Shown: in pieces, positions 21,743 through 24,243 of the stretch
Layout: each line of letters starts with the position of its first letter
Position numbering within the stretch: position 1 is the stretch's first letter
Origin: Thermomicrobium sp. 4228-Ro
GTDB taxonomy: Bacteria; Chloroflexota; Chloroflexia; Thermomicrobiales; Thermomicrobiaceae
Assembly: GCF_026241205.1 (NCBI RefSeq)
Contig: NZ_JAPFQM010000001.1
Location: forward strand, 248,001 to 312,000
Direction: 5' to 3'
Length of the DNA stretch: 64,000 bases
The notes under the pieces: generated by a model
Seen by the model: only the letters and a program-made list of their open reading frames with translations
The model's database searches: none
What the model was told of the DNA's origin: nothing
Position numbers and translations under genes: made by a program

Positions 21743-21918
21743 GCCCTTTCCACCTTGTCCACACTGCGGTGCCTGGCTGACACAGCAGAGACCGGGAAGA
21801 GCCAGCTCGTCCCAATTCCGACACCGAAGCGACAGCAAGATGACAGGAGCGAGGTCGCTATACTGGCAGCGGAAAAGCGAGAAACTGTCAGGCTGCATGG
21901 CTGAAGGGAGGTGACTCA

Positions 21919-22488
21919 GTGACGTCGACTAGTGAGACGATCGCAGAGTGGCCTGTGCGCGAACTCGTCGATCGCATGCGCCGGCCGCGGTACCGGTGTG
22001 GCGGCGGGGTGGCTGCCTGCATCGCGCTTGCGCAAGCAGCTGCGCTGGCGGACCTCGTCCGCCGTGCCTCCCAGCGCGTGATGGATCGCGCGCTCTCCGA
22101 GCAACTCGCGGCCGCCTTCGCGGAAACGCTCCAGCAGGCACTCGCCCAGGCGGACCGAGATCGCCTGGCGCTTCACCAGCTTCTCGAGGCACTTCGCCAC
22201 GACTCGGTTACCGAACAGCTGGCTTTCGTGGAACGCGCGACGACCGTTCCGCTCGCAACCGCGGACCTCGGGATCGAATTGCTCGGTCGGCTTGCCCACC
22301 TCGAACCGCACGTACCAGCGTTCGCAGCCTCCGACCTGGAGGCGGCGAAAGCCCTCGCACGCGCTGCCATTCAGGCAGCACTCGCAATGGCCCGCGCAAA
22401 TATCCCGCTGCTTCCGGCCGAGCGAGCTGGCCAGCTGGCGGATGAGATCACCGCACGCCTCTCGAAGCTCAACACCGCGCTTCCGTAA
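21919..22488 (+). CDS. Cyclodeaminase/cyclohydrolase family protein (FTCD C-domain, FchA-like)
   Basis: The 189-residue, almost fully helical protein matches the formiminotransferase-cyclodeaminase C-terminal family. The glycine-rich N-terminal motif RCGGGVAACIALAQAAALADLV corresponds to the PGGGSAAA folate/substrate loop. Stand-alone members include methenyl-tetrahydrofolate cyclohydrolase (FchA) and cyclodeaminases. GTG at 21919 follows GGGAGGTGA at good spacing. A TATACT box at 21859-21864 is a possible -10, with no clear -35. The next gene, 78 bases on, is a FolD homologue that seems to lack cyclohydrolase residues, so the cyclohydrolase step is the best guess for this one. A serine-cycle or histidine-degradation role cannot be ruled out. 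Confidence 0.82.
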   Translation: MTSTSETIAEWPVRELVDRMRRPRYRCGGGVAACIALAQAAALADLVRRASQRVMDRALSEQLAAAFAETLQQALAQADRDRLALHQLLEALRHDSVTEQLAFVERATTVPLATADLGIELLGRLAHLEPHVPAFAASDLEAAKALARAAIQAALAMARANIPLLPAERAGQLADEITARLSKLNTALP

Positions 22489-22566
22489 TCTTTATAGGTC
22501 GAGTACGAGTCGTCGCACCAGCGGTCTCGCCGGGGACTTGACTTTAGAACGAAAGGAGCCAACTCG

Positions 22567-23421
22567 ATGCCAGCACGCCTTCTGACCGGCGCCCCAGTCG
22601 TGGAAGACCTCCATCGCGAGATCGAAACGCGACTGGCTACGCTCTCACCAGACGCTCCACGCCCGACTCTCGCACTCCTCGTTCCCGAGGATCCCTCAGC
22701 ACGTGCCTACGCCAAGGCCATACGCAAGCAATTCACCAAGTTAAACTTGAATATTCGTGCTATATGGCTGGAAGAAACCGCGAGCGAGGCAGAATTCGTC
22801 CGCCTCGTCAAGCAACTCGGCGACGACGCATCGATCACCGGCATCCTCGCGCTCCAGCCACTGCCACGTAGCATTCCCCGGCTGCTCCTCGCGAACCTCA
22901 TCCCCCCAGAAAAGGATGTCGATGGTGTGTCGTTCGCTCAGCAAGGACGGCTCGCGCTCGGTCAGCCCGACATAGCCCCCAGTACTCCGCTCGGCGGTCT
23001 CCTCCTGCTTCGTCATTACGGAATCGAAATCGCGGGCCACCATGCCGTCGTGATCGGCCGCAGCCCCGTTGTCGGCCGTCCCCTTGCTCTCTTGCTCCTC
23101 GCCGCTGATGCCACGGTAACCATCTGTCATAGTCGCACACCGAACCTCGCCGAGATGACGCGCCAGGCCGATATCCTCCTCACTGCGGCTGGGCATCCCC
23201 GACTCGTGACAGCGGACATGGTCAAGCCCGGTGCGGTGGTCGTGGACTTCGGCGTCTCGGTGATCGACGGACAACTGGTCGGTGATGTCGACCCCGCAGT
23301 CCGCGAGCGGGCCAGCGCCTTGACCCCAGTCCCCGGCGGCACCGGTCCGGTCACCACAGCAGTATTAGCGTGTAATTTGCTTCACTTGGCGGGACTCTGG
23401 CCCGACTGGCCTCCGCGCTGA
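22567..23421 (+). CDS. folD: FolD-family methylenetetrahydrofolate dehydrogenase, probably without cyclohydrolase activity
   Basis: FolD normally oxidises methylene-THF with NADP and hydrolyses methenyl-THF. The 284-residue product keeps the fold: Tyr48, KDVDG (116-120), STPLGG, a Rossmann VVIGRSPVVGRP and TPVPGGTGPVTTAVL. In the catalytic YxxxKxK motif the sequence reads YAKAIRK, so the first lysine (E. coli Lys54) is Ile52. In GILxQLP, the Gln98 position is Leu96 (GILALQP). These residues are required for the cyclohydrolase reaction; dehydrogenase activity can persist without the lysine. The codons around the motif (TTA AAC TTG AAT ATT) are noticeably AT-rich against the GC-rich surroundings. 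ATG 22567 follows AAAGGAG. Confidence 0.85.
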   Translation: MPARLLTGAPVVEDLHREIETRLATLSPDAPRPTLALLVPEDPSARAYAKAIRKQFTKLNLNIRAIWLEETASEAEFVRLVKQLGDDASITGILALQPLPRSIPRLLLANLIPPEKDVDGVSFAQQGRLALGQPDIAPSTPLGGLLLLRHYGIEIAGHHAVVIGRSPVVGRPLALLLLAADATVTICHSRTPNLAEMTRQADILLTAAGHPRLVTADMVKPGAVVVDFGVSVIDGQLVGDVDPAVRERASALTPVPGGTGPVTTAVLACNLLHLAGLWPDWPPR

Positions 23422-23913: not shown

Positions 23914-24201
23914 TCAGAGACGCTGGCAGTCCTCGAGGGGGATGACGAAGATTGTCGCTGCAGCGCCCTGGACAGTCCCTTGCGGTGATTCTTGCCGAAC
24001 CCGCGTCTTGGCACGTTCGCGGACGATTCCCAGTACGGTCTCGACCTCATCGTCCTCGACGCCGATGAGGAGCGTCGTGTTACCTCTCCGGAGAAATCCA
24101 CCGGTACTCGCGAGGCGCGTCGCGCGGAACTGGCGCTCGAGCAGTGCCTCGACGATCGCATCGGCATCTTCGTTTTGGACGACAGCGATTACGAGCTTCA
24201 T
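23914..24201 (-). CDS. darA: Cyclic-di-AMP receptor-like protein (DarA/PstA, PII-like fold)
   Basis: The 95-residue product MKLVIAVVQNEDAD... matches the DarA/PstA family almost motif for motif: VVQxxD at the N-terminus, the central STGGFLRRGNTTLLIGVED that holds the ligand, and a C-terminal ATIFVIPLE strand. Family members bind c-di-AMP as trimers and resemble PII signal proteins. The loop between the GVED helix and the last strand is shorter than in Bacillus DarA. ATG at 24201 lies behind GGTGGGG and a strong promoter. It is monocistronic and convergent with the small membrane gene. Its presence implies c-di-AMP signalling, although no diadenylate cyclase is in the window. Confidence 0.85.
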   Translation of the reverse strand: MKLVIAVVQNEDADAIVEALLERQFRATRLASTGGFLRRGNTTLLIGVEDDEVETVLGIVRERAKTRVRQESPQGTVQGAAATIFVIPLEDCQRL

Positions 24202-24243
24202 CGTCCCCACCGGCTTCCTCGCGCACCCGGCACAGCCGACCGC

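Follow-up and report, generated by a model that had tools for sequence, protein, structure and literature searches.

The window (the whole stretch of 64,000 nucleotides of Thermomicrobium sp. 4228-Ro DNA that was analysed) carries an FchA-family gene and, after a gap of 78 bases on the same strand, a folD gene, each with a good ribosome-binding site. The features of the pair, in window coordinates, are:

21906..21914, + strand: Shine-Dalgarno-like GGGAGGTGA 5' of the FchA-family gene (direct sequence reading)
21919..22488, + strand: FchA-like (FTCD_C) protein, 189 aa, proposed methenyl-THF cyclohydrolase (PF04961 4.3e-15; sole copy; AlphaFold2 pLDDT 96.1; Foldseek 1o5h, 7vg4)
22552..22558, + strand: Shine-Dalgarno-like AAAGGAG of folD (direct sequence reading)
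22567..23421, + strand: folD, FolD-family protein, 284 aa, proposed dehydrogenase only (PF02882 4.9e-55, PF00763 2.1e-18; PDB FolD 6e-59; sole copy)
22708..22710, + strand: FolD Tyr48, equivalent to E. coli Tyr50 (folate site), retained (alignment)
22720..22722, + strand: FolD Ile52 (codon ATA) instead of catalytic Lys54 (alignment to solved FolDs)
22852..22854, + strand: FolD Leu96 (codon CTC) instead of Gln98 (alignment to solved FolDs)
22915..22917, + strand: FolD Asp117, equivalent to E. coli Asp121 (pterin contact), retained (alignment, sequence reading)

A cyclic-di-AMP receptor gene (PF06153, DarA-like) follows folD at 23917-24210, in the opposite orientation (- strand).

Both Pfam domains of the FolD protein score above their curated cut-offs (PF00763, 67.1 versus 32.8 bits; PF02882, 185.7 versus 27 bits), and the protein has its fold, NADP site, Tyr50 and Asp121 in common with the bifunctional FolDs of E. 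coli and Thermus (6v6y), but it is without the Lys54 and Gln98 that those enzymes have. In FolD the lysine has been proposed to act as acid/base, held in position by the glutamine (PMC3338484), while the tyrosine and aspartate bind folate (PMC3338484; PMC6443876). In the window protein both folate contacts, Tyr48 and Asp117, are present; the lysine of the catalytic YxxxK is Ile52 (Y48-A-K-A-I52-R-K) and the lysine-positioning glutamine is Leu96 (G92-I-L-A-L96-Q-P). An earlier note on this DNA had picked out these two substitutions from the letters, and alignment to solved FolDs does place both at the catalytic columns. The same I and L occur in all five other same-genus FolDs that span both sites, and a sixth, truncated FolD has the L, so neither chance nor sequencing error explains them. 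The note had also taken AT-rich codons around the altered motif as the mark of a diverged segment. Such a stretch exists at 22687-22776 (GC 0.48 versus 0.63 for the whole gene; GC3 0.53 versus a gene mean of 0.68), but it is no sign of recent divergence, because relatives conserve both substitutions; recent local divergence was ruled out, the substitutions being clade-wide. Mutants of the E. coli enzyme have been assayed: K54N has 19% of its dehydrogenase activity left and undetectable cyclohydrolase, and Q98H retains 8% of the dehydrogenase and about 1% of the cyclohydrolase (PMC5688156).

The 3.07 Mb genome is 99.9% complete and encodes one FolD and one FTCD_C protein; the second canonical FolD that would have undercut the earlier reading is absent from it, as is any formiminotransferase domain (FTCD_N, PF07837). 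A plasmid search gave distant FolDs only. The genome also encodes PurH and one Fhs, the latter about 206 kb from the FolD/FchA pair. From this gene complement it follows that 10-formyl-THF is needed and that the FchA-like neighbour is the sole candidate cyclohydrolase found besides FolD.

The neighbour had been assigned to the family that contains FchA, and this is borne out by a PF04961 (FTCD_C) score of 56.3 bits against a cut-off of 24.5 and by an AlphaFold2 model (pLDDT 96.1) that matches 1o5h and the Methylobacterium methenyl-THF cyclohydrolase 7vg4 (TM 0.87). It is a highly divergent member: its Pfam score of 56 bits compares with about 200-230 in many relatives, it has no NCBIfam match at E 0.001, and the FchA NCBIfam model NF045657 (cut-off 275) is not reached by a congener (L063, 13.5 bits) or even by a Herpetosiphon protein (only 234.6). 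Family-invariant residues are nevertheless kept (Gly28-30, Asp81, Pro111, Ser138-Asp139 and Asn161). The Arg-bearing central loop, present in 99% of relatives, is deleted, as it is in the solved TM1560.

PF04961 spans both activities, and the protein might instead be a formimino-THF cyclodeaminase serving the breakdown of histidine or purines, with 10-formyl-THF made by Fhs alone; an Fhs is present in the genome, and the best single Foldseek match is TM1560, annotated as a cyclodeaminase and narrowly above 7vg4, the close second. We consider this highly improbable, given that the genome is without a formiminotransferase domain, that the FchA-like gene pairs with FolD, and that a profile of the protein and its relatives (which mixes lineages) places the solved methenyl-THF cyclohydrolase 7vg4 at the top with 9e-54, ahead of cyclodeaminases at 2e-41 and 5e-41. 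An identity as the cyclodeaminase of histidine breakdown in particular was rejected on the absence of formiminotransferase from the genome. The divergence could also mean that FchA is decaying in the window's own family, and that FolD acts as a dehydrogenase with flux running through Fhs and spontaneous hydrolysis. The FchA-like proteins of two families (f1 and f3) have indeed lost the Arg loop and the Pro before GGG and have low Pfam scores. Decay is nonetheless unlikely, since the Gly-Gly-Gly, Asp, Pro, Asp, Asn core is kept in the window lineage, the frame beside FolD is intact in five of five other full-length same-genus loci, the ribosome-binding site is strong and the family fold is predicted with confidence.

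A survey of 158 genomes of the class found FolD in 147 and FTCD_C in 141 (91/93 and 89/93, respectively, among high-quality genomes). Essentially all FolDs in the class loci read are without Lys54 and mostly have Ile instead, the exceptions being a canonical second FolD in one genome (G100) and a few odd paralogues. The G100 gene (L003/L089) sits on a 3.7 kb contig and is a possible contaminant. In the window's family the Gln98 position holds Leu, Phe or His; it holds His in genomes that we take to be Roseiflexus-like and still Gln in Chloroflexus- and Herpetosiphon-like genomes. One correction to the earlier note is that the clade-wide change is K-to-I, while Q-to-L came later and varies.

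In a sample of the phylum, an FTCD_C gene lies within 1.5 kb of 22 of 29 Lys54-less FolDs versus 0 of 31 Lys54 FolDs, counts that describe this sample only, the Lys54-less group having been picked from families with weak PF00763 scores. Where its length is listed, FTCD_C in the Lys54 group is usually a long form of at least 500 aa, the size of a formiminotransferase fusion. In some Lys54-less genomes no FTCD_C is seen, though several of these are incomplete. The FolD/FchA pair is the normal state in most Chloroflexota lineages sampled. The split between two proteins proposed in the earlier note is supported, the residue pattern included (dehydrogenase-critical residues kept, cyclohydrolase residues lost), and the pair is no local peculiarity. 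Extra FolD paralogues in two Chloroflexota genomes (L118, L121 and L122) have Asn, Arg or Leu at Tyr50, so these are perhaps not folate dehydrogenases. The FchA-adjoining FolD of an Oscillochloris MAG (L219) is split over two frames by a frameshift or an assembly error.

The co-occurrence of Lys54 loss with an adjacent FchA-family gene, which the earlier note proposed to test within Thermomicrobia, extends far beyond them. An FchA-seeded scan of 80 named loci, a set biased to adjacency by design, found FolD near FchA at 37 loci, and Lys54 is absent in 37 of 37; two of these FolDs are from Nitrospirae, with Ala and Met replacing Lys54. Six Atribacteria genomes have a FolD without Lys54 and carry FchA at another site. 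In Methylobacterium and two related methylotroph genomes (L288, L290, L293) a Lys54 FolD is kept away from FchA, so Lys54 loss is predicted by adjacency of FchA to FolD and not by the presence of FchA alone. The FchA genes of several methylotrophs and Burkholderiales adjoin a protein with a weak FolD-profile match, which is probably MtdA. The class of Thermosyntropha (L306, L314-L319, L331) often has two tandem FolDs, one canonical and the other with Gln in place of Lys54 and His in place of Gln98. Further FolDs from Nitrospirae (L299, L303, L309, L311) have Gln98 to Phe and no adjoining FchA; the L311 frame contains a TAG stop.

Residues were compared among 265 distinct FolDs (199 after clustering). 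FchA is adjacent in 76 of 150 Lys54-less clusters versus 0 of 49 Lys54 clusters, and Gln98 is substituted in 76/150 versus 1/49. These tables are strong, but how many independent events do they represent? A quick tree with poorly supported deep branches shows about four changes of Lys54 state and a single well-supported independent contrast, and a phylogenetically independent test of the Lys54/FchA association has too few contrasts for significance. Most Lys54-less FolDs belong to a single deep subfamily, so the cases behind the association lack statistical independence and stand for few events, and the contingency tables largely reflect shared descent. With the tree rooted on one Lys54 FolD, parsimony has a Bacillota-rich clade regain the lysine, so either loss or gain may have come first. 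The Lys54-less FolD with FchA might even be a separate form of the enzyme, ancient and perhaps of the same age as bifunctional FolD, in which the two proteins may hand methenyl-THF over directly; we think this rather unlikely.

As evidence, the contingency tables count for less than the site-specific pattern and the mutants described in the literature. Of 40 columns conserved to 95% or more in FolDs with Lys54, the one that differs most in FchA-neighbouring FolDs is Lys54 itself (0%), and Gln98 ranks fourth (58%). Tyr50 (99%), Asp121 (100%), Pro100 (100%) and many others, most glycines included, remain at 95-100%. Gln98 varies in Lys54-less FolDs because its role is to position a lysine that is gone. 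Could such FolDs still be bifunctional, through another residue or direct attack by water, with the FchA-like protein doing something else? Methenyl-THF hydrolyses spontaneously, E. coli carrying K54N is viable (PMC5688156), and the window FchA is divergent. However, the folate domain of these FolDs has gained neither a basic nor an acidic residue that would compensate (conserved basic residues that are new are not seen there), Gln98 is free to vary, and FchA adjoins such FolDs across phyla; retained bifunctionality is accordingly very unlikely.

The reading we favour, and consider probable from sequence and published mutants, is a two-gene folate unit in which FolD would be a dehydrogenase only and the FchA-family protein would supply the cyclohydrolase. 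FolD would oxidise 5,10-methylene-THF to 5,10-methenyl-THF with NAD(P)+ and, because its acid/base lysine is Ile and its positioning glutamine Leu, would no longer hydrolyse the product. The FchA-family protein would convert methenyl-THF reversibly to 10-formyl-THF, alongside Fhs, and this 10-formyl-THF would feed PurH and formyl transfer. Weighing against this reading are the divergence of the window FchA and its missing Arg loop, the shared descent behind the association, and those Lys54-less genomes in which no FTCD_C is seen.

Such a division of labour between FolD and FchA is already known. In Clostridium perfringens, of a different phylum, FolD is reportedly a dehydrogenase only, with the cyclohydrolase provided by FchA alongside Fhs (work attributed to Aluri et al. 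2016), the same arrangement as proposed here. Methylobacterium likewise has a separate dehydrogenase, MtdA, and an FTCD_C-family cyclohydrolase, Fch (the fold match 7vg4), but its MtdA is not a FolD, and it keeps a Lys54 FolD elsewhere in the genome, unlike the single Lys54-less FolD here. Acetogens such as T. acetatoxydans have fchA beside folD, as in the window, but in clusters associated with fhs and with the Wood-Ljungdahl pathway (PMC3584212), whereas the Fhs gene here is distant. The literature searched held no prior report of the split in Chloroflexota or of natural Lys54 loss; by that measure the residue signature is new, as are its spread through Chloroflexota and the misannotation that results.

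FolD orthologues have been described as strictly conserving the catalytic residues (PMC3338484); contrary to this, there is a large natural FolD subfamily without the key lysine. Most Chloroflexota FolDs sampled share this loss, as do FolDs of a few other phyla, yet their annotation still includes both steps. Annotation by name, and metabolic models that assign the two reactions to every FolD, can therefore err. Lys54 together with Gln98 offers a simple rule that separates the two FolD types. If their activity is as proposed, members of the subfamily would be natural dehydrogenase-only enzymes for mechanistic studies; analogy with E. coli K54N (PMC5688156) also predicts resistance to carolacton.
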